Shown here piece after piece: positions 35,828 through 46,841 of a stretch of 64,000 bases of DNA. A program made the translations under genes and the position numbers. The notes beneath the pieces were generated by a model. It made no database searches. It was not told the origin of the DNA and was given only the letters and a program-made list of their open reading frames with translations. Every line of letters starts with the position of its first letter. Positions within the stretch are counted from its first letter, which is position 1. Origin of the DNA: Planctomycetota bacterium (GTDB lineage: Bacteria > Planctomycetota > Phycisphaerae > Phycisphaerales > SM1A02); assembly GCA_016872835.1 (NCBI GenBank), contig VGYX01000003.1, positions 62,001-126,000 on the forward strand, given 5' to 3'.

Positions 35828-37288
35828 TTGAAGCACGCTCCGAATGCCGCACAGCGGCCCACGTCCGAGTCGAGCACGCACGCCAAGCCACAGTCCAGCA
35901 CGCCAGGGGGGTCCGCCACGAAGAAGCACTTCGTGCTGGACACCAACGTGCTGCTGCACAATCCGAACTCGCTCTACAAGTTCGAGGAGCACGAGGTCGT
36001 GATCCCGCTGCAGGTGATCGAGGAACTCGACCAGTTCAAGAAGAACAACGACGAGACCGGCCGCAACGCGCGCACCGTGATCCGCTCGCTCGACAAGTTG
36101 CGCTCCATCGGCCGCCTGTTCGAAGGCGTGATCTGGAATGAACAGGGTGGCTGCATCCGCATCGAGCGCTGCGACCGCACCACACCGTTCGCGCTCGACC
36201 TTGACAGCGCCGACAACCGCATCCTGGGCGTGGCGCACCGCCTGCATGAGGGTGGCAACCGCACGATCTTCATCAGCAAGGACATCAATGCGCGCGTGAA
36301 GTGCGACGCGCTGGGCATTCCCAGCGAGGACTTCGAGGCCGACCGTGTGGACGCCGACTGGCTCTACTCCGGCTACGCCACCATGTCGTGTCCGGGCGAG
36401 ACGATCGACGAGCTCTATCAGGAGCGCCAGCTCAGCGTGGAGCAACTCGAAGGTCTGGTGCTGAAGACGCCCGAAGGCATGGAGATCAAGGCGCACGACC
36501 TCGTCGCGAACCAGTTCGTCACGCTCACCGACGACGCCGACGAGAGTCACACGGGTCTGGCGCGCGTGCTCGCCGACACCGGCCATCTGATCCCGGTGGT
36601 CGGCCCGCGCAAGCCCGTCTACGGCATCATGGCGCGCAACCTGCAGCAGACCATGGCGCTCGACCTGCTCCTCGATGACGAGGTGCGGCTGGTCTCGCTG
36701 ATTGGCCCTGCGGGCACCGGCAAGACGCTCATGGCGATTGCCGCAGGCCTGCACAAGGTCTTCCGCGAGGAGCGATTCGACAAGCTGCTGGTGGCGCGCC
36801 CGATCATGCCGCTCGGCCGCGACATCGGCTACCTGCCCGGCGACAAGGACGAGAAGCTCTCGCTCTGGATGCAGCCGATCTTCGACAACGTGTCCTACTT
36901 GCTGAGCACGCGCGGAGGCGGCGGCACCGAGGCCGACAGCCGCACGGCGGAGCAGCGCATGGACCAGCTCGTGGCGGGCGGCAAGCTCGTGATGGAGCCG
37001 CTGACCTACATCCGCGGTCGCAGCATTCCGCACCAGTTCATGATCGTGGACGAGGCGCAGAACCTCTCGCCCCACGAGGTGAAGACGATCGTGAGCCGCG
37101 TGGGCGAGGGAACGAAGATCGTGCTGGCCGGCGACATCGGCCAGATCGACAACCCGTACCTTGATGCCGCGAGCAACGGCTTGGCGCACCTGATCGAACG
37201 CATGAAGGGCCAGCGCATCGCGGGTCACGTGACCATGAGCAAGACCGAACGCAGCGAGCTTGCGAGCCTCGCCGCGGACATGCTCTGA
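35828..37288 (+). CDS. PhoH-family ATPase with N-terminal PIN domain
   Basis: The gene encodes 486 aa from an apparent TTG start. Residues ~35-170 form a PIN ribonuclease domain (HFVLDTNVLLHNPNSL, IEELDQFKK, LDSADNRILGVAHRL, ISKDINARVKCDALGIPSEDF, with the acidic residues spaced as expected). The rest is the PhoH P-loop domain: IGPAGTGKTLMAIAAGL (Walker A), ARPIMPLGRDIGYLPGDKDEKL, FMIVDEAQNLSPHEVKTIVSRVGEGTKIVLAGD split by loops, and a motif-III-like LAGDIGQID. Such PIN-PhoH proteins couple a nucleic-acid-dependent ATPase or helicase to an RNase. The first ~30 residues are Ser/Thr/Pro-rich. AGGGG about 8 nt before the TTG could act as ribosome-binding site. Confidence 0.93.
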   Translation: MKHAPNAAQRPTSESSTHAKPQSSTPGGSATKKHFVLDTNVLLHNPNSLYKFEEHEVVIPLQVIEELDQFKKNNDETGRNARTVIRSLDKLRSIGRLFEGVIWNEQGGCIRIERCDRTTPFALDLDSADNRILGVAHRLHEGGNRTIFISKDINARVKCDALGIPSEDFEADRVDADWLYSGYATMSCPGETIDELYQERQLSVEQLEGLVLKTPEGMEIKAHDLVANQFVTLTDDADESHTGLARVLADTGHLIPVVGPRKPVYGIMARNLQQTMALDLLLDDEVRLVSLIGPAGTGKTLMAIAAGLHKVFREERFDKLLVARPIMPLGRDIGYLPGDKDEKLSLWMQPIFDNVSYLLSTRGGGGTEADSRTAEQRMDQLVAGGKLVMEPLTYIRGRSIPHQFMIVDEAQNLSPHEVKTIVSRVGEGTKIVLAGDIGQIDNPYLDAASNGLAHLIERMKGQRIAGHVTMSKTERSELASLAADML

Positions 37289-37300
37289 ATCGTTCGGGCG

Positions 37301-38395
37301 TCAGGCGCGAGCGCCGGCGCGTCGGGCACGGACCAGTTCGGCTCCGGCCGTCGATGCCATGCTGGCGCGCGGTGCGAAACCGTCCGCACCCACGGTGCGC
37401 CAGAGATTCGGCGCCATGTGGAAGGGCATGCCACCCACCAGCACGGCGGGTGACTGGCTACCCATCGCGGCCCGTACTGTGGCGATCAGGTTGGCGATGC
37501 CGCGGACGGCCAGTGGCGTGCCCGCGCTCACGAGCAGCAGGTCCGCCGGACCGCGATGCGGCTGGGCGCCGACGGACTCGGCCACCTCGTGGGAGGGCAT
37601 GTTCGCGCCCAGGCACTCGACGTTCCAGCCGTCGAGTTCCATGAGGTCGCTGATCATGCGGATGCCAAGATCGTGCATGTCGCCACCGCTGCTGCACGAG
37701 ACGGCCAGCATGCCGTTGGAGGTGCGACGCTCGTACTGCCCACGCAGTCGGGCAAGGATCGCCAGCGTGCTTGCCGTGCAGTAGTGCTCGTCTGCGATCG
37801 AGGCCTCGCGCATGTGCCACATGTGGCCGATCTCGTTCATCGCCGGCGCAAGGATTCGCTCGTGGATCTCGGCCAGCGACATGTTGCCGTCGATCTGCTC
37901 CTGCACGATGCGTTCCGCATGATCACGCTCTCGCTGCAGGAGGTGCAGCAGGAAGAGGCGCGCCAGCGTCCCTTGGTCGCCCATGTGCTCCAAGGGACTC
38001 TCGGGTGTGTGTGGTCCCGCCTCGACCTCGCGAATCGCGCGATCGATCATCGCTCCGGCTCGATCGGACACGGTCGACGGCAGATGCTCGGTGATCACCT
38101 CGCGCAGGCAACGCAGGCTTCGCAGCACGTCCCCATCACCCATGTCACGCGCCAGGAAGGCCGCACGGCTCCACGCGGCGCTGGCCAGAAAGAGGGCAGG
38201 CTCGTCCGCGGCGAGCGCCTCGACCAGATGCGCCACACGCGCCTGCACGTCGCCGCGCCACAGGCGGCGGCACTCCGGGCCGAACCGGCTCTCCAGCGAG
38301 GCATCAGCGGCGCAATGCTGGTCCACAGTCCACTCCGCAACGGCGCGGCAGACGGATTCAAGAGCGTCGGCAGCCTGAAGATGGGCCGATTGCAT
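37301..38395 (-). CDS. Cobalamin-binding protein with CarH-like photoreceptor signature
   Basis: The gene encodes 364 aa. The C-terminal ~225 residues are a B12-binding module: a helical cap with Trp193-x9-Glu203-His204 (WHMREASIADEH), then a Rossmann-like domain with the DxHxxG motif Asp239-Met-His241-Asp-Leu-Gly244, where His241 would be the lower axial ligand. The W-x9-EH motif is the mark of the CarH/LitR light-sensing family, which uses adenosylcobalamin. Those proteins carry an N-terminal MerR DNA-binding domain. Here residues 1-135 are instead an all-helical domain with no HTH that I can see. It may therefore signal by protein contact. Light sensing is inferred from the motif. Confidence 0.82.
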   Translation of the reverse strand: MQSAHLQAADALESVCRAVAEWTVDQHCAADASLESRFGPECRRLWRGDVQARVAHLVEALAADEPALFLASAAWSRAAFLARDMGDGDVLRSLRCLREVITEHLPSTVSDRAGAMIDRAIREVEAGPHTPESPLEHMGDQGTLARLFLLHLLQRERDHAERIVQEQIDGNMSLAEIHERILAPAMNEIGHMWHMREASIADEHYCTASTLAILARLRGQYERRTSNGMLAVSCSSGGDMHDLGIRMISDLMELDGWNVECLGANMPSHEVAESVGAQPHRGPADLLLVSAGTPLAVRGIANLIATVRAAMGSQSPAVLVGGMPFHMAPNLWRTVGADGFAPRASMASTAGAELVRARRAGARA

Positions 38396-38399
38396 GACT

Positions 38400-38437
38400 G
38401 GGGACTTCGACCGTCGTCCCCAATGGATTCAGTCCCC
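38400..38437. promoter_or_regulatory. Inverted repeat GGGGAC/GTCCCC next to the B12 protein start
   Basis: GGGGAC (38400-38405), GTCCCC (38416-38421) and a second GTCCCC (38432-38437) lie directly upstream of the ATG at 38395. The two GTCCCC units are 16 nt apart. This could be an operator for autoregulation or a structured leader. It was noted by eye and no protein is assigned. Confidence 0.4.
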
Positions 38438-38491
38438 CGTGACAGTCGGGAACCCTTCAATGTCTCTTGAAATCAGGCCTCGTGGCCCGAT

Positions 38492-40516
38492 TCAGCGCAA
38501 GCGATGGCGGGCGGGTTCCTCGGTCAGGTCCACCTGCCGCTGCTCCGGCGAGCCGGTCAGGGCGGCGTGCTTCAGCCGGTACTGGGTCACCACAGTCATC
38601 AGAGTGGCGTGACTCCAGGTGAGCGGGCTCACCGAGATCTGCGCTCCGGAGTGGGGGTCGTACTGCTCGGCGAGCACGCCGCTGGGGGAAGCACGCCAAC
38701 GCGCCCACTCCAGATACTCCAGCGCCTCGCGGAGTTCCGCCTCGTTCGAGGCACGCGCGATGAGCCACTGCGCGTACCAGAGCGTGCAGATGACCCACGG
38801 GTTGCCGGGAATCTCGTGCAGCGCGTGCCGCTCGACCTGGTGATAGGTGTCGCGTTCATAGCGCGCGATGCCGCCGACCTCGGTGCGAACCCAGAGCCGT
38901 TCGCGGATCGCGCGCATGTGACTGGTCACGCGCGCGTCAGTCGCCTCGAGCGCCCCGAACGCGAACAGCGCGTAGGCGGAGGCGTCCAGCGTGAAGTCGA
39001 GCCGGTAGGAGCCGTCCTCCTGCGGGTGCGCCGTGCGCGCGAAGAGCCGGCGCTCGGGATCCCACAGGTGGCGGATCATCGCGCCGCGCATGCGCTCGGC
39101 GCCCTCGCCGAACTCCGCGGCGCGGTCCATGGCGCCCATGTCGGCCGCGAAGTTGCTGGCCGCCTGCAGCGCGCCGATCGTGGCGCACACCGTGAACAGG
39201 TGCACGCCGCGGCGCTCCTCCCACAGGTCCCAGCTTGGCAGCGGCAGTCCCGCGTGATCGCGGTAGCTCAGCATCCAGTTGGCCGTTTCGACCACCAGCG
39301 GGTTGTAGAGCGTCTTGATGAACTCCACATCGCGGAAGGCCAGGAAGTGCTTGCGCAGCGCCCAGGTGACCAGTGCGGTCTCGTCTTGCTGGATCGGCAG
39401 CCATCGGCCCTTCTCGGTGAGCCACGGATGCCAGCTGCTCGCGAGCGTGCCGGTGGGGTTGTACTTGTGCAGGAAGTAGCCGTCGGCGTGCCGCACGCGC
39501 TCGCAGAAGTTGAAGAAGTTCCGGCTGAGTTCGCTGTGACCGGCCAGCGTGAGCGCGTAGGACACCAGCGCGCCGTCGCGCGGCCACATGTACGAGTAGG
39601 TGTCGCCTGCGAAGTGCGTGATGTCGTGGTCGTTGGCCGCGATGATCGCGCCGCCGTGATCGATCTGCGTGCGCACGATCAGCGCGCTGCGGCGGTGCAG
39701 GTCGGAAAGATGGTCCGGCAGCGGGTCGTTGGCCACCGCCTCCTTCTGGCTCCAGAGGCGCCAATAGGCCTCGGTGCGATCCAGCATGCGCTGCGGCGTC
39801 TTCAGTCGGACCTTGTCGTCGAGCTCTCGGATCGCGTCGTAGCTCTTGCCCGAGGCGATCCAGTAGAAGCAGTGCTCGGTGCCGCCAGCGGGCACGTTCA
39901 GGTGCAGTCCCACCGTGCTGTCCACGCTGCCCTGCGCGATCGCGTTGCGGCTCAGCAGGCCGTCCTCGGCGTCACGCCAAGTGCCCTCGGCGTCACCGAT
40001 GCGCTTCTGGCCCGTGGCCCAGGTGCCGATGCCCCAGCCGGCGGGGTGCAAGCCGTTGAACAGGAAGTAGCACTCGTCCTTGTAGTGCACCAGGCCGCCG
40101 GTGCCAGGGTCGTAGGCCACGGTGTCGCCCACGGGACTTTCCGCCACCGAAAGGTCCGCGTGGAAGAACAGCCGAACGTCACGCGCTCGCCCAAGCAGAT
40201 CGCACACCGTCACCTTCCGGAAGAAGACCGGACTGTAGTAGTCGACCGCGTCATGGCAGATCAGCTCGAGGCCCAGCCGCTCGTGGCGCAGGCGCACCTC
40301 CGTCACCAAGGTGTCGCGCTTGTAGCGCAGTTCGCGCACCCATCCCGCGCTGTCGACCCATGAGAAGGCCCCATCGGCCCACACGCCGAACCGCTGCAGG
40401 TGACCGCAGGTGTGGTTGGGCTGGCCCACGTGGGGCCAATACAGGTCGCGGATGCGATAGAGGTCGTCGAACGCGACCAGCATCTCGCCGTTACCGATGG
40501 GGATGTTGCGTGGCAT
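38492..40516 (-). CDS. Glycoside hydrolase family 15-type glucoamylase/trehalase-like enzyme
   Basis: The gene encodes 674 aa with no signal peptide, so it is probably cytoplasmic. An N-terminal beta-sandwich domain (residues 1-240) precedes an (alpha/alpha)6 barrel. TYSYMWPRDGALVSYAL around residue 307-323 is the GH15 WPRD motif. The catalytic acid is likely Glu433 in SWDLWEERRG. The second carboxylate is likely Glu617 in SGVLAEQYDP. Family members remove glucose from maltooligosaccharides, isomaltosides or trehalose; the substrate here is not determined. The gene follows fabF on the same strand after 97 nt and precedes the B12 protein gene. Confidence 0.9.
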   Translation of the reverse strand: MPRNIPIGNGEMLVAFDDLYRIRDLYWPHVGQPNHTCGHLQRFGVWADGAFSWVDSAGWVRELRYKRDTLVTEVRLRHERLGLELICHDAVDYYSPVFFRKVTVCDLLGRARDVRLFFHADLSVAESPVGDTVAYDPGTGGLVHYKDECYFLFNGLHPAGWGIGTWATGQKRIGDAEGTWRDAEDGLLSRNAIAQGSVDSTVGLHLNVPAGGTEHCFYWIASGKSYDAIRELDDKVRLKTPQRMLDRTEAYWRLWSQKEAVANDPLPDHLSDLHRRSALIVRTQIDHGGAIIAANDHDITHFAGDTYSYMWPRDGALVSYALTLAGHSELSRNFFNFCERVRHADGYFLHKYNPTGTLASSWHPWLTEKGRWLPIQQDETALVTWALRKHFLAFRDVEFIKTLYNPLVVETANWMLSYRDHAGLPLPSWDLWEERRGVHLFTVCATIGALQAASNFAADMGAMDRAAEFGEGAERMRGAMIRHLWDPERRLFARTAHPQEDGSYRLDFTLDASAYALFAFGALEATDARVTSHMRAIRERLWVRTEVGGIARYERDTYHQVERHALHEIPGNPWVICTLWYAQWLIARASNEAELREALEYLEWARWRASPSGVLAEQYDPHSGAQISVSPLTWSHATLMTVVTQYRLKHAALTGSPEQRQVDLTEEPARHRLR

Positions 40517-40613
40517 AGGTGGTGGGTGGCGCGACGCCGAGCGCCTGCAGGAATATCGGATCCCGGGCAGCTTCGGTGGAGCGGAATCCCCAGATTCCCG
40601 TCGGCAGGTGCGC

Positions 40614-41879
40614 TCAGCCGCGGAAGCGGCCGAAAATCAGGCTGGTGTTGTGCCCGCCGAAGCCGAAACTGTTGTTGATCGCGAAGTCGGTCTTTCGCTG
40701 CTGCGGCGTATGGGGCACGAAGTTCAGGTCCATGCCCTCGTCGGGGGTGTCCAGGTTGATCGTGGGAGGCAGGGTGTCGTTCACGATCGCCAGGATCGTG
40801 GCCACGCTCTCGATGCCGCCGGCCGCGCCCAGCGCGTGACCGGTCACGCTCTTCGTGCTGCTCATGGCGAGCGACTTGGCCGCGTCGCCGAAGAGCCGCT
40901 TCACCGCCACCACCTCGGCCTTGTCGCCAAGCGGCGTGCTGGTGCCGTGCGCGTTGATGTAGGCGATCTGCTCGGGGTTCAGTTCCGCCTCGCGCAGCGC
41001 CATCTTCATGCTGCGGTAGGCACCCGCGCCCTGCTCATCGGGTGCCGCGATGTGATAGGCGTCACCGCTGCAGCCGTAGCCGAGCACCTCGGCGTAGATG
41101 CGCGCGCCGCGCTTCTTCGCGTGTTCGAGCTCCTCAAGCACGATCACGGCCGCACCCTCGGCCAGCACAAAGCCATCACGGTCCTTGTCGAAGGGCCGGC
41201 TCGCCTTGATGGGATCGTCGTTGCGCGTGCTCAGCGCCTTCATCGCGCTGAAGGCCGACACGGCCACGGGGCCGATCGCGCCCTCGGCACCACCGGCGAG
41301 CATCACGTCCGCGTCACCGCGCTGGATCATGTGGAAGGCCGCGCCCACCGCGTGCGAGCCTGTGGCGCAGGCGGTTGCGGTGGCGACATTCACGCCCTGC
41401 AGATTGAGGCGGATGCTGGTCTGGCCTGCGCAGGCATTCACCATCAGGCGTGGAACCACGAAAGGGCTCACCTTGCGGGGGCCACCTTCCATGAGCTTGG
41501 TGTGGTTCACCTCGATCGTGTCGATGCCACCGATGCCGCTGCCGATCGCCACGCCGCGCCGCTCGAAGTCGCCCGCGTTGAAGTCGATGCCGCAGTCGCG
41601 GGCTGCCTCGACGGCGGCGCCGAGGCCGTACAGGCAGAAGCGGTCCATGCGCTTGGCCTCGCGGCCATCCACGCCCATGTGCTTCTCAGGATCGAAACCC
41701 TTCACCTCGCCGCCAAAGCGGGTTGGCCAGTCGGGCGTCGTGGGGAAGTTGGTGATCAGGCCGATGCCAGATCTGCCCTCGAGCAGGCTTTGCCAGAAGG
41801 CGGGGACATCGATGCCGATGTCGGTGACGGCACCGAGACCGGTCACGACGACGCGTCGAAGCGTGATCGTCCGTGGCAT
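40614..41879 (-). CDS. fabF: 3-oxoacyl-ACP synthase II
   Basis: The gene encodes 421 aa. The enzyme condenses malonyl-ACP with acyl-ACP during chain elongation. The start RRVVVTGLGAVTDIGIDVPAFW is typical. The catalytic triad is visible: Cys in ATATACATGSHAVGAAFH, His in INAHGTSTPLGDKAE and His in SVTGHALGAAGGIESVA. The C-terminal NNSFGFGGHNTSLIF loop is also conserved. It is the last gene of the rpmF-plsX-fabH-fabD-lipoprotein-fabG-acpP-fabF run, 28 nt after acpP. There is no strong Shine-Dalgarno. Confidence 0.97.
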   Translation of the reverse strand: MPRTITLRRVVVTGLGAVTDIGIDVPAFWQSLLEGRSGIGLITNFPTTPDWPTRFGGEVKGFDPEKHMGVDGREAKRMDRFCLYGLGAAVEAARDCGIDFNAGDFERRGVAIGSGIGGIDTIEVNHTKLMEGGPRKVSPFVVPRLMVNACAGQTSIRLNLQGVNVATATACATGSHAVGAAFHMIQRGDADVMLAGGAEGAIGPVAVSAFSAMKALSTRNDDPIKASRPFDKDRDGFVLAEGAAVIVLEELEHAKKRGARIYAEVLGYGCSGDAYHIAAPDEQGAGAYRSMKMALREAELNPEQIAYINAHGTSTPLGDKAEVVAVKRLFGDAAKSLAMSSTKSVTGHALGAAGGIESVATILAIVNDTLPPTINLDTPDEGMDLNFVPHTPQQRKTDFAINNSFGFGGHNTSLIFGRFRG

Positions 41880-41907
41880 GCGGGTGCGGGGCGTGGAGCC
41901 GCCGGGG

Positions 41908-42159
41908 TCAGGACTTCGCGGCCAGACCCTTGTTGATCATGTCGACGGCCTGACCCACGGTGTGGATCTTCTCCGCCTGATCGTCCGGGATCTGGATGTC
42001 GAACTCTTCCTCAAGCGCCATGACCATCTCGACGGTGTCGAGACTGTCGGCGTTCAGGTCGTTCGTGAAGCTGGTGTCGCGCGTGATGGTCTCCTTCTCC
42101 ACGCTCATCTGCTCCGACACGATCTTGATCACCTTGGTTTCGATCTCTTGCTCGGTCAC
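41908..42159 (-). CDS. acpP: Acyl carrier protein
   Basis: The gene encodes 83 aa, the normal size and acidic. The phosphopantetheine attachment site is the Ser of [18 protein letters not shown]. The GTG start is preceded by AGGAGA about 7 nt upstream, which decides it. Upstream in-frame codons read into the spacer after fabG. The high level of this protein needed for lipid synthesis fits its good ribosome-binding site in a genome region where few genes have one. It sits between fabG and fabF. Confidence 0.97.
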
Positions 42160-42260
42160 GTCGCTTCTCCTGAAAGATGCGGACCCTGGCTTTCCCGGGT
42201 CCTGAAGGCTGGGAGGGTATCCGGAACGGCCGGAAACCGCCACGCGGCGGCCGGCACCGG

Positions 42261-42995
42261 TCACATCGCCATGCCGCCGTCCACCACGATCACCTGGCCG
42301 GTCACGTAGCCCCCGTCCTCGCCGGTCAGCCATCCGATGGCGGACGCGATGTCGTTCGGGGTTCCGAACCGCTTGAGCGGAATGTTCGGCAGGGCCGCTT
42401 CCTTCACCTGAGGTGGCAGGACGGCGGTCATGTCGGTCTCGATGAAGCCCGGGGCGACCACGTTGGCGGTGATGCCCTTGGACCCCAGTTCACGCGCGAT
42501 GCTCTTGGTCATGCCGACCAGCCCCGCCTTGGCCGCGGCGTAGTTGGCCTGGCCCGCGTTGCCCATGAGGCCGCTGACGCTGCCCACGTTCACGATGCGG
42601 CCGAAGCGGCCCTTCATCATGGGGCGGCTGGCGGCGCGGCAGGCCACGAAGGCGCTCTTGAGGTTCACGCGGATCACGTCGTCGAAGTCGGCGTCGCTCA
42701 TGCGCATGAGAAGGCCGTCCTTCGTGATGCCCGCGTTGTTCACGAGGATGTCAAGACGGCCGTGCTTCTCGGCCACGTCCTCGACCATCGCGGCCAGCGC
42801 GGCAGAATCGCCCACATCGCAGCCGCGTGCCTCGAAGCGGCCACCCGCGGCCTGGATCGCCGCACCCGTCTCGGCCAGGTTGTCGGCGCTGCGGGCCACG
42901 CCCACGACCAGTCGGCCGCCCTTCGCGATCCGTTCGGCGATCGCCCGGCCGATGCCTCGGCTGGCTCCTGTCACGATGGCGACGCGATGTTCGAT
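42261..42995 (-). CDS. fabG: 3-oxoacyl-ACP reductase
   Basis: The gene encodes 244 aa with the start used here. It reduces 3-oxoacyl-ACP with NADPH. SDR motifs are [17 protein letters not shown] (cofactor loop), [14 protein letters not shown], the catalytic Ser in [18 protein letters not shown] (Tyr-x3-Lys) and [13 protein letters not shown]. The start is unusual. A Shine-Dalgarno AGGAG lies 6 nt before an ATC codon (42993-42995), from which the protein begins [10 protein letters not shown], as expected for the family. The nearest ATG in frame (43046) would add 17 residues, has no ribosome-binding site, and has no counterpart in FabG. Confidence 0.92.
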
Positions 42996-43095
42996 GGTTC
43001 GCTCCTGTCTGGGGGAAACGGCATGGACGCCCGGTTGCGCGGGCATGATGGGGTGCGGCCCGTCGGCGCGCAACCAGGCTGTACGGCAGGCTGGC

Positions 43096-43836
43096 TCAGT
43101 TCGACTTGCCGGGCGTTCCGCCGGGCTGGCCCGAGGCGGGCTCCTCGCCCTTCACGGAACGATCCTCCTGCGCCGACTCCAGCGGCACATCGGGCTTCTT
43201 CGATTCCTCGATCGAACTTCGTGTGTACGCCATCCACTGCTTGATGCGCGGCTCGGCGGTGGTGCCCGAGAGCTTGTCCATCATGTTGGGCCAGTTGGGC
43301 TGCGCTTCCAGTTGGATCTGGTCGGGATTGTCCTTCGACTCGACGAAGGTCCACAGCTGGCCTTGGAACTTGTCGCCCACCAGGAACACCGCCAGCACGT
43401 CGGGACCCGCACAGCCGATGCTGACACGGTCCACGTCCTGGCCAAGCGTCTTCCATTCGCCGCTCTTGACCATGGTCTCCAGCGTGGCCTTGTCGCGCGC
43501 GGAGAGCATGGGCTTGATGGCGTCCTCCTTCGCGTTCAGCATCGCATCGAAGAAGACCACCAGCGCCTCGAGCTGCTTCTGATTGGTGGCGGCATCGCCC
43601 GAGGAGGGACGCTCGCTCTCCTCCATGCGGATGCGCTTGTCCAGACCGAGTCGCGTGACGACCTCCTCGACCGTCTCGGCCTTCACGGTCTCGACGGGCG
43701 CGGGTGGCGGCGGAGGCGCCTGCGCGGCCTGTTCCTCTTCCTTCTTGCCACAGCCCGCAAGGGCGAGCGCGGTGAGCAGCAGGGCGGCTCTGATCGTGTC
43801 AGGCCTTCGCACGCTGCGGTTCCTCGATGGCGTCAT
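43096..43836 (-). CDS. Lipoprotein embedded in the fatty-acid operon
   Basis: The gene encodes 246 aa. The N-terminus ends LLLTALALAGCGKKEEE, a lipobox followed by a charged and Pro-rich tether (AAQAPPPPPAPVETVKAE). The mature part is mostly helical (EALVVFFDAMLNAKEDAIKPMLSARDKATLETMV), then a beta-rich region (GPDVLAVFLVGDKFQGQLWTFVESKDN). I recognise no family. It lies between fabD and fabG and overlaps the 3' end of fabD by 38 nt in another frame, so it is translated from the same mRNA. A role in the envelope linked to lipid supply is a guess from position. Confidence 0.78.
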   Translation of the reverse strand: MTPSRNRSVRRPDTIRAALLLTALALAGCGKKEEEQAAQAPPPPPAPVETVKAETVEEVVTRLGLDKRIRMEESERPSSGDAATNQKQLEALVVFFDAMLNAKEDAIKPMLSARDKATLETMVKSGEWKTLGQDVDRVSIGCAGPDVLAVFLVGDKFQGQLWTFVESKDNPDQIQLEAQPNWPNMMDKLSGTTAEPRIKQWMAYTRSSIEESKKPDVPLESAQEDRSVKGEEPASGQPGGTPGKSN

Positions 43837-44764
43837 GGGTGGTCACCTCGGCGGTTCGGTCGATGCGGCGCATGAGACCGCGGAGCACGCTGCCCGGGGC
43901 CATCTCATGCAGCGACGCGCTGGCATCGAGGCCGTGGGCCTTGCGCCACGACAGCATGTCGAGGCAGCAAGCGTCCCAGCGTACCGGCTTCACGATCTGG
44001 TCCACCAGCAGCGACTTCAGCGTGGCGGCGTCGGTCCCGTGCGGCTTGCCGGTCACGTTGCTCCACACGGGGCAGCGTGCGGCGCGGAACTCGACGGTCT
44101 CGAGCGCGCGCGCCATGCCTTCGGCAGCGGGCGCCATGAGTGGACTGTGGAAGGCGCCAGCCACCGCGAGCTTGGTCGCGCGCAGACCCATCGCACCGGC
44201 CACCTCGACGGCACGGTCGCACGCCTCGGCGTGGCCGCTCAGCACGATCTGGCCGGGTGCGTTGAAGTTCGCGGGCACGAGAATCTGGCCCTTCGCGGCT
44301 GCGGCACAGACCTCGTTCGCCTTGGCCTCGTCACCGCCGATCAGGGCGACCATGCCGCCCTTGCTCGCCTCGGCGGCCTTCTGCATGAGTCGGCCGCGCG
44401 TGGAGACGAGGCGCAGGCCCTCGACGAAGGTGAACACGCCGGCGAGCGCCAAGGCGGTGTATTCGCCGAGCGAAAGTCCGAGCGCCGCGGCGATCGGGGT
44501 CTCGCCACCATGCTCGGTCAGCGCGGCATGACAGGCGTAGCCGCAGGTGAAGAGGGCCGGTTGGCTCACGTCGGTGCGGTTGAGCGTCTCGACGGGACCT
44601 TCGAAGCAGAGCGCGCTCAGTCGCGCGCCGCCGTCGAGTTCCACGACGTGATCGGCCTGTGCGAACAGCGTGGCGGCGGTCGGGCTGGCGTCGTGCCACG
44701 ACTTGCCCATGCCCACGGATTGAGCGCCCTGACCCGGGCAGAGAAGGATGTGCTGCAGACTCAT
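43799..44764 (-). CDS. fabD: Malonyl-CoA:ACP transacylase
   Basis: The gene encodes 321 aa. It moves the malonyl group from CoA to ACP. LLCPGQGAQSVGMGKSW is the N-terminal family block. The nucleophile elbow reads LGLSLGEYTALALAG, where the usual GHSLGE has Leu in place of His; the Ser is kept. The second catalytic residue is His in VAGAFHSPLMAPA, and Gln/Arg positions are in GRLMQKAAE. A Shine-Dalgarno AAGGAG is 8 nt before the ATG. It lies between fabH and the lipoprotein gene. Confidence 0.96.
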   Translation of the reverse strand: MSLQHILLCPGQGAQSVGMGKSWHDASPTAATLFAQADHVVELDGGARLSALCFEGPVETLNRTDVSQPALFTCGYACHAALTEHGGETPIAAALGLSLGEYTALALAGVFTFVEGLRLVSTRGRLMQKAAEASKGGMVALIGGDEAKANEVCAAAAKGQILVPANFNAPGQIVLSGHAEACDRAVEVAGAMGLRATKLAVAGAFHSPLMAPAAEGMARALETVEFRAARCPVWSNVTGKPHGTDAATLKSLLVDQIVKPVRWDACCLDMLSWRKAHGLDASASLHEMAPGSVLRGLMRRIDRTAEVTTHDAIEEPQRAKA

Positions 44765-44805
44765 GATTGGATCTCCTTGCAGACGTGCGTCACGGGTACG
44801 CGCGG

Positions 44806-45810
44806 TCACACGTTCCAGACGCCACTCGCCCAGGTCATGCCGCCGCCGAAGGCCACGAGCATCATGGGCTGGCCAGCCGGCACCTTGCCCGCTCGCCACA
44901 GCTGGTCCAGACACAGACCCACGCTGCCGGCGCTCGAGTTTCCGAATCGATCGATGTTCACGTAGACCTTCTCGGGAGGCAGACCGATCTTCTCCATCGC
45001 GCTTTCGATGATGCGGATGTTGCTCTGGTGGCAGATCACCTGGCTCAGGTCGGCCGGCGTGAGGTTCGTGGCGGCGAGTGCGTCCTCGATCACCTGGCGG
45101 AACCGGTTCACCGCGAACTTGAACACCTCGCGGCCGTTCATGCGCAGGCAGCCCAGGCGGATCGGGTTGTTCAGGTCGGCTTCCGGCACTTCCTGCGGGC
45201 GGCGTGGCATGTAGAGGCCGGTCCAGTCGCGCCCGTCGCTTCCAAGCTGCTGATGGATGCAGCCGCGGTCGGGGTTCTCGTCGGCGACCAGGATCGCCGC
45301 GCCGGCCGCGTCGCCGAACAGGATGCTCACGGAGCGCTCCTGATAGTCGATCACGGTGCTCATCGCGTCGCCGCCGCACACGCCGATGCGCTTGAAGCGC
45401 CCGCTGCGGATGAGCGAGTCGGCCAGATTCATGCTGTAGACGAAGCCGCTGCACGCGGCGACCACGTCGAACGCGCCCGCGCCCAACGCGCCGACCTCGC
45501 CGGCCACGCGGCAGGCCACGCTGGGGCAGCTCATCTCCTGCGTGCAGGTTCCCACGATGATCAGGTCAAGATCGCTGCCCTTCATGCCCGAGGCGTCGAG
45601 CGCGTTCTTCAGCGCGTCGCGGTTCAGGGTGAAGGTGCCTTCCTTGCTCGGGTCACTCACACGGCGTTCGCGGATGCCCGTGCGCTGCACGATCCACTCG
45701 TCGCTGGTGTCGACCATGCGCGAGAGATCGTCATTCGTCAGGCGTCGTTCTGGCACCGCGCTGCCCGTGCCGACGATCCGGACGCCTGGGGCGCCGGGGA
45801 TTCGTGTCAC
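44806..45810 (-). CDS. fabH: 3-oxoacyl-ACP synthase III
   Basis: The gene encodes 334 aa. It starts fatty acid synthesis by condensing acetyl-CoA with malonyl-ACP. VRIVGTGSAVPERRLTNDDL, DTSDEWIVQRTGIRERR and the catalytic Cys in VVAACSGFVYSMN are typical. The catalytic His (VICHQSNIRII) and Asn (DRFGNSSAGS) are present, and the C-terminus is LVAFGGGMTWASGVW. The GTG start overlaps the plsX stop by 4 nt (GTGA), indicating coupled translation. Confidence 0.97.
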   Translation of the reverse strand: MTRIPGAPGVRIVGTGSAVPERRLTNDDLSRMVDTSDEWIVQRTGIRERRVSDPSKEGTFTLNRDALKNALDASGMKGSDLDLIIVGTCTQEMSCPSVACRVAGEVGALGAGAFDVVAACSGFVYSMNLADSLIRSGRFKRIGVCGGDAMSTVIDYQERSVSILFGDAAGAAILVADENPDRGCIHQQLGSDGRDWTGLYMPRRPQEVPEADLNNPIRLGCLRMNGREVFKFAVNRFRQVIEDALAATNLTPADLSQVICHQSNIRIIESAMEKIGLPPEKVYVNIDRFGNSSAGSVGLCLDQLWRAGKVPAGQPMMLVAFGGGMTWASGVWNV

Positions 45811-46841
45811 GCGTTCACCTCGGCGTCCGCGCCCACGCCCCGCAGTTCGCCAAGGCGTCGGCTGATCTGGCCGTTCAGGCCGGTGATCACGAACTGACGC
45901 ATGCGGAGGATCGCGTTCATGATGGTGCGCGCCTGGCTGCTGCCGTGACTGATCAGGCAGACGCCATTCACGCCCAGCAGCGGCGCGCCGCCGTACTCGT
46001 GATAGTCGTGCTTCGCGTAGAGGCTCTTCACGACGGGCTCGAGACGCGCGGCCAGCTCTGGATCGATGGCGAGCACCTCGCGCGCGAGCGCCTTGAAGAT
46101 GCCGCTCGAGAGGCCCTCGGCGAGCTTGATCATCACGTTGCCCACCACGCCGTCGGTGATCACCACGTCGGCTTCGCCGTCGAACACGCCGCGGCCCTCG
46201 ACGAAGCCCGTGAAATTCAGGCCTTCCGCGCTGCGCAGCAGGTCACGCGCCAGACGCATGTCGTCGGTGCCCTTCTGCTCCTCGCCGCCCACGTTCATGA
46301 TGGCCACGCGTGGCTGCTTGATGCCGATCATGGTGCGGGCGTAGGCCTCGCCCATCACGCCGTACTGCGCCAGGTGCGCAGGACGGGGCTCAATGTTGGC
46401 GCCGACGTCGATCAGGACCACGGGGCCCGCGAAGGTCGGCACGGTCACCGCGATGCCGGGGCGGATGACGTTCGGCAGGCGGCGCATGTACATCTGCGCG
46501 GCGCCCACCATCGCTCCGGTGTTGCCGGCGCTCACGATCGCGTCAAGACGGTTTTCCGCCTTGGGGCCCGCGTGCTTGGCCATCACGACGAGGCTGGCGT
46601 CCTTCTTGGAACGGATCGCGTCGACCGGCGCGTCGTCCATCCCGATCACCTCGGTGGTGGCAACGATCTCGATGCGCGCATCGCGGATGCCGCGCTCACT
46701 CAGAGTCTCCTCGATGACGCGACGGTCGCCGTACAGAACCAGCCGATCTTCGGGAGGAAGCTTCGGGAGCGCCTGCAGACAGCCCTTGAGGATTTCGTCA
46801 GGGGCGTTGTCGCCGCCCATGACGTCCACGCCGAGTCGCAT
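45807..46841 (-). CDS. plsX: Phosphate acyltransferase PlsX
   Basis: The gene encodes 344 aa. PlsX makes acyl-phosphate from acyl-ACP, the donor for PlsY in phosphatidic acid synthesis. The N-terminus MRLGVDVMGGDNAPDEILKG is diagnostic. IDVGANIEPRPAHLAQYGVMGEAYA, GNVMIKLAEGL and the PLLGVNGVCLISHGSS block near the C-terminus are also conserved. It starts 3 nt after the rpmF stop, as in many bacteria, and overlaps fabH at its 3' end. Confidence 0.96.
   Translation of the reverse strand: MRLGVDVMGGDNAPDEILKGCLQALPKLPPEDRLVLYGDRRVIEETLSERGIRDARIEIVATTEVIGMDDAPVDAIRSKKDASLVVMAKHAGPKAENRLDAIVSAGNTGAMVGAAQMYMRRLPNVIRPGIAVTVPTFAGPVVLIDVGANIEPRPAHLAQYGVMGEAYARTMIGIKQPRVAIMNVGGEEQKGTDDMRLARDLLRSAEGLNFTGFVEGRGVFDGEADVVITDGVVGNVMIKLAEGLSSGIFKALAREVLAIDPELAARLEPVVKSLYAKHDYHEYGGAPLLGVNGVCLISHGSSQARTIMNAILRMRQFVITGLNGQISRRLGELRGVGADAEVNA

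Follow-up and report, generated by a model that had tools for sequence, protein, structure and literature searches.

The locus

The gene at the center of this account lies in the window, by which we mean the whole 64,000-nucleotide stretch of planctomycete DNA that we analyzed. It closes a run of genes on one strand, in the order PlsX, FabH, FabD, a lipoprotein-like gene, FabG, acyl carrier protein, FabF and a GH15-family gene, and a PIN-PhoH gene converges on it from the other side. The genes are as follows.

35828-37288, plus strand: PIN-PhoH gene, convergent; 13 nt separate its end from the stop codon of the photocobilin gene, with which it is not co-transcribed
37301-38395, minus strand: predicted photocobilin-type photoreceptor gene, ATG start, 364 amino acids, photoglobin domain followed by an adenosylcobalamin (AdoCbl) domain
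38492-40516, minus strand: GH15-family gene, 96 nt upstream of the photocobilin gene on the same strand; often, not always, its neighbor
40614-41879, minus strand: FabF-type ketoacyl synthase gene, a conserved neighbor (Pfam and neighborhood comparison)
41908-46841, minus strand: the rest of the fatty-acid run (acyl carrier protein, FabG, lipoprotein-like, FabD, FabH, PlsX)

Orthologues in many genera keep the reading frame of 37301-38395 intact. Set against two orthologues (~61% identical), the gene gave a dN of 0.32 and dS values of 0.82 and 1.08, which indicates purifying selection. Because the frame is open across many genera and dN falls well under dS, we take the gene to be real. A single-protein query led to no confirmed related locus; a query with the family alignment was needed to bring in the relatives. 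A scan of 37150-42400 turned up no sigma-70-like promoter, a result that carries no information in this phylum.

The adenosylcobalamin domain

Pfam recognizes two domains in the 364-residue protein, B12-binding_2 at residues 149-217 (E 1.6e-11) and B12-binding at 234-338 (E 1.1e-11), and finds neither a domain nor a helix-turn-helix (HTH) in residues 1-148. The full-length AlphaFold2 model has a pLDDT of 92.5 and a pTM of 0.89. The features of the C-terminal half are these.

37325-37981, minus strand: CarH-type AdoCbl domain, residues 139-357, a predicted helical bundle plus Rossmann fold (Pfam, PDB sequence matches, VIA Z 25.9)
37784-37828, minus strand: adenosyl-pocket signature G190xxW193-H194 ... 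E203-H204 (alignments; signature according to PMC11796333)
37673-37684, minus strand: G238-D-M-H241, with the putative lower axial His of cobalamin, aligned with SasPcob His108
37595-37609, minus strand: G263xxxP267 signature (alignments; signature according to PMC11796333)

Light-responsive AdoCbl domains carry a published signature of GxxW, EH, GxxH and GxxxP (PMC11796333), and in our alignment it is complete (G190xxW193, E203-H204, G238xxH241, G263xxxP267). A sequence-only reading of this DNA had picked out W193-x9-E203-H204 and D239-x-H241-x2-G244 as the mark of a CarH/LitR-type AdoCbl photosensor module, and its residue numbers proved correct. Among 30 relatives of the same taxonomic family W193, E203, H241 and G244 never vary, with H204 conserved in at least 90%; among 80 wider relatives W193 and E203 are found in all 80, H204 in 77 and H241 in 79. 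Position 194 is His in 77 of the same 80. This H194, which follows W193, aligns with the H132 that follows W131 in TtCarH and gives that protein its bis-His light state; the position is Gln in SasPcob and Tyr in AbDPcob (PMC11796333).

The nearest solved proteins, by sequence and by Z score, are photocobilins, and not the methyltransferase corrinoid proteins that would have told against the photosensor reading. The best PDB sequence matches are AbPcob (8j2y, E 2.6e-18) and SasPcob (8j2w, E 6.4e-15), with CarH far weaker at E 0.002. In structure comparison with VIA, the modeled C-terminal domain matched AbPcob 8j2y with a Z of 25.9 (rmsd 2.3 Å, 211 residues aligned), SasPcob with 25.0 (rmsd 2.1 Å, 206 aligned) and TtCarH with ~20. 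Identity with MtaC, MtbC or MtgC was rejected on score, the three best NCBIfam models giving 40-45 bits against cut-offs of 215-370.

The same genome provides an internal negative control in a second B12-domain protein (L002:1426-2178; G000:C2 ~87446-88198), a paralogue of 250 amino acids with a degenerate domain that has no W, EH or axial His at the signature positions. An ECF sigma factor gene (L002:2242-2835) follows 64 nt downstream of it, and most genomes of the taxonomic family contain comparably weak matches, with ~21-31% identity to the B12 half. This paralogue is possibly a cobalamin-free signaling partner of a sigma factor.

The N-terminal photoglobin domain

The sequence-only reading had described the first ~135 residues as all-helical, with no MerR domain or HTH in view, and both points are borne out by the models. 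Residues 1-128 are all helix in the full-length model, and residues 1-137 modeled alone (AlphaFold2) give a confident all-helical domain (pLDDT 92.7). The fold can be put more precisely: it is modeled as a phycobiliprotein-fold globin, not a winged helix.

38012-38395, minus strand: predicted photoglobin (phycobiliprotein-fold) domain, residues 1-128, putatively biliverdin-binding (AlphaFold2, VIA, profile match)
38249-38251, minus strand: D49, aligned with SasPcob Asp270 (PDB alignment and N-domain profile)
38171-38173, minus strand: W75, invariant, aligned with SasPcob Trp296 (alignments and N-domain profile)

The modeled domain matches the photoglobin domain of SasPcob (residues 225-345) with a VIA Z of 17.2 and an rmsd of 2.3 Å over 121 aligned residues, which exceeds the Z of ~13 that is the tool's caution level for helical bundles. 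Allophycocyanin and the biliverdin-binding smURFP match with Z ~17. RsbR-type globins are not among the structural matches listed, though a distant relation to them may exist. A profile of 24 such N-domains independently of structure found SasPcob (8j2w, E 1.7e-7), ungapped over residues 49-104. Searching the PDB with the single N-domain sequence gave nothing but a designed helical repeat, and Pfam run on the 24 N-domains gave a weak Phycobilisome match in 2 members only (best E 0.011). Taken together, model and profile identify residues 1-128 as a photoglobin.

The chain index and residue number of SasPcob differ by an offset of 6, fixed by W193 = Trp61, E203 = Glu71 and H241 = His108, and because this offset applies to the profile alignment, D49 corresponds to Asp270 and W75 to Trp296. 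In SasPcob, Asp270 is the key contact to biliverdin and Trp296 touches both ring D of biliverdin and the corrin; the weak biliverdin binding of AbDPcob has been attributed to a His at the position equivalent to Asp270 (PMC10979010). At position 49, 29 of 30 close relatives have an acidic residue (Asp or Glu), and His is frequent among more distant ones (17 of 80); W75 is invariant in the 30 family members and the 80 wider relatives alike. The Cys that would link a bilin is missing: if D49 is the Asp of CXRD, then W46 occupies the place of the cysteine.

A probable globin-first photocobilin

Sequence and models combine to classify the 364-residue protein as a photocobilin in which the domain order is reversed, globin and then cobalamin domain. 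A single chain holds a CarH-type AdoCbl domain with W-x9-EH and D/E-x-H, a photoglobin domain (the profile match at E 1.7e-7 and the Z of 17.2), and the equivalents of Asp270 and Trp296 (D49 and W75) with no linking Cys. It shares with CarH/LitR proteins the AdoCbl light signature and the bis-His residue (W193, H194, E203, H204, H241) but has no N-terminal MerR domain, residues 1-128 modeling as a globin. The earlier suggestion of a new architecture has to be given up: the helical domain is a photoglobin, and since photocobilins had been grouped from predicted structures in 2024 with their AdoCbl domain at the N- or at the C-terminus (PMC10979010), the globin-first arrangement was already known.

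SasPcob, the standalone photocobilin of Saccharothrix syringae (8j2w/8j2x; PMC10979010), likewise joins a CarH-type AdoCbl domain to a photoglobin with no output domain, and its Asp270 and Trp296 have their equivalents here; unlike SasPcob, our protein puts the globin first, has His194 in place of Gln, and is ~25% identical to it in the B12 domain. AbDPcob/AbPcob, a photocobilin-diguanylate cyclase (8j2y), comes nearest both in the PDB sequence search and in the Z score of the AdoCbl domain, but the window protein has no enzyme domain, Asp in place of its His at the biliverdin position, His194 in place of its Tyr, and the opposite domain order. With CarH/LitR (TtCarH, 5c8d) it has in common the AdoCbl domain, W-x9-EH, the lower His and the bis-His residue (H132 = H194), with a photoglobin where those proteins have their MerR DNA-binding domain. 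Photoglobins, or bilin-biosynthesis-associated globins (PMC10151467), are another case in which a globin of the bilin type is associated with a protein that binds B12; the Myxococcales globins of that study come from genomes with heme oxygenase, whereas here none of the heme-oxygenase families searched for was found. AerR/PpaA (7te2) is a cobalamin-binding light regulator that also lacks a DNA-binding domain and works by protein contact; the target of AerR is CrtJ (PMC5362033). The AerR chain of known structure, at 205 residues, is in contrast a B12 domain alone, with no photoglobin.

Cofactor supply

The host genome (2.39 Mb in 46 contigs, 98.9% complete) encodes a PduO-type cobalamin adenosyltransferase (E 2.5e-60), as do 32 of the 34 photocobilin-bearing genomes in our sample of the taxonomic family. 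For bilin the picture is different. The heme-oxygenase families PF01126, PF10615 and PF03992 had no match in the host genome, in searches that gave matches in control genomes; across the taxonomic family PF01126 was found in 7 of 34 genomes with a photocobilin and 34 of 87 without (Fisher p 0.058). Because these families are missing from the host, the bilin half is possibly empty or externally fed. It may stand empty, take up environmental bilins, be supplied by an unrecognized enzyme, or be used in some other way.

Neighbors that stay when the photocobilin goes

The order fabH-fabD-fabG-fabF(-GH15)-photocobilin recurs among relatives. FabF lies within 8 kb of 41 distinct photocobilin genes and GH15 at a median of 94 nt in 26 cases, counts that are approximate since they come from single-linkage clustering of uncurated ORFs. 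The arrangement varies by clade: one clade of photocobilins has no GH15, and in another the fab run is convergent to the photocobilin gene. Two genomes of the same genus, G039 and G114, run from FabG-ACP-FabF-GH15 directly to PhoH, with the photocobilin gene absent. Since the locus persists in these two without it, and given the variation between clades, GH15, PhoH and fab are not required partners, and the idea that the PIN-PhoH and GH15 genes are linked to the photoreceptor falls away. The photocobilin gene is an accessory, carried by some genomes and missing from others.

The two loci without it (L144 and L145) retain, besides FabG-ACP-FabF-GH15 and the convergent PhoH, BaxI and NIF3, the photocobilin gene being cleanly missing. 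G039 has a heme oxygenase instead.

Distant relatives adjoin genes for ECF sigma factors, an RskA-type anti-sigma factor, fasciclin proteins, cyclopropane synthase, DUF1365 and amine oxidase. In the photo-oxidative response of Vibrio, much of which runs through ChrR/sigma-E, a cyclopropane-synthase gene is induced by blue light (PMC5241685). The resemblance between the two hints at a similar output and is the best lead we have, one that comes by analogy from the relatives and not from the window.

How it might work

Our best explanation, in which we have considerable confidence, is a standalone globin-first photocobilin in which light would trigger cleavage of AdoCbl, a change in assembly and an output by protein contact. 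Output by protein-protein contact had already been thought probable in the sequence-only reading, and standalone photocobilins are described as acting in this way (PMC10979010). Cofactor binding, photochemistry and oligomer change we infer from the solved relatives; partner and physiological role are speculative. In the dark, AdoCbl would be bound base-off/His-on through H241, its adenosyl group packed on W193 and E203-H204 across the dimer interface of what, by homology, should be a head-to-tail dimer (PMC10979010). The Co-C bond would be broken by green light, or by red light should a bilin sit close to D49 and W75. The adenosyl group would then depart, the helical bundle with its E203-H204 helix would shift, and H194 may turn into the upper cobalamin ligand as in TtCarH. 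The dimer would be disrupted, the oligomer state would change, and the light form would contact a partner protein directly, an ECF sigma or anti-sigma factor being our best guess.

Alternatively, the protein might sense light through AdoCbl only, its globin having lost bilin binding to become a structural or docking module, with a response to green and blue light only. We take this seriously while leaning slightly against it. The host's lack of matches to the three heme-oxygenase families speaks for it, as do the lack of any positive association between heme oxygenase and the photocobilin gene in the taxonomic family and the precedent of AbDPcob, with ~20% biliverdin occupancy (PMC10979010). 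Yet position 49 is acidic in all but one of the 30 close relatives and W75 never changes, and the weak binding of AbDPcob was put down to a His where the window protein has Asp. It is distinctly unlikely that the signal is the occupancy of the site by AdoCbl and not photolysis; such a pocket would register how much AdoCbl is present, and a B12-responsive regulator had been allowed for earlier, but every residue that marks light-responsive domains is retained, and the signature-bearing proteins tested in PMC11796333 were all responsive to green light.

The position of the gene at the end of the fab run, and the recurrence of that order with FabF close to 41 photocobilin genes, would suit a functional coupling to fatty-acid synthesis, such as light-adjusted membrane lipids. 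We think this unlikely, given that G039 and G114 keep FabG-ACP-FabF-GH15 beside PhoH without a photocobilin, that fab is convergent in one clade and that distant relatives are located elsewhere. Scarcely credible is a corrinoid carrier for a methyltransferase, of the MtaC/MtbC/MtgC type: MtgC and MtbC models do top the NCBIfam ranking, but the protein has an N-terminal globin and the W/EH signature, and no methyltransferase was seen among the conserved neighbors.

What the planctomycetes bring

On sequence and models, the window holds a real, well-conserved gene of known architecture, probably for a photoreceptor. In the literature covered here, two photocobilins have been characterized, both from actinobacterial sources, and the class would now take in many planctomycetes, most of them from fresh water. 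In these, nature has set up a comparison by which the two chromophores can be told apart in their roles. Their AdoCbl half lacks nothing, the bis-His residue included, but the usual source of bilin is missing from most of the genomes, so that it becomes testable whether the globin acts as an antenna, as a scaffold with nothing bound, or as a receptor for some other input. The clade has its peculiarities, in that H194 is kept where SasPcob and AbDPcob are without it, and the AdoCbl-making enzyme is present without the tested heme oxygenases. A tentative extension, which we would not press, is of a planctomycete sub-lineage that combines a photoglobin with a CarH-type bis-His light state, makes no biliverdin of its own, has a globin that is externally fed, binds a new ligand or serves mechanically, and works with a sigma/anti-sigma partner.

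Other settings are seen further afield. In L042 and its relatives the photocobilin gene lies downstream of genes for a TgpA-type transglutaminase, an unassigned protein of 280 amino acids and a Bax-inhibitor-like protein, with fab convergent. In the proteobacterial relatives L118, L125 and L131, RND-efflux-like genes, their family judged by sequence appearance, are found near the photocobilin homologue; in L131 such a gene precedes it by 28 nt in the same orientation.
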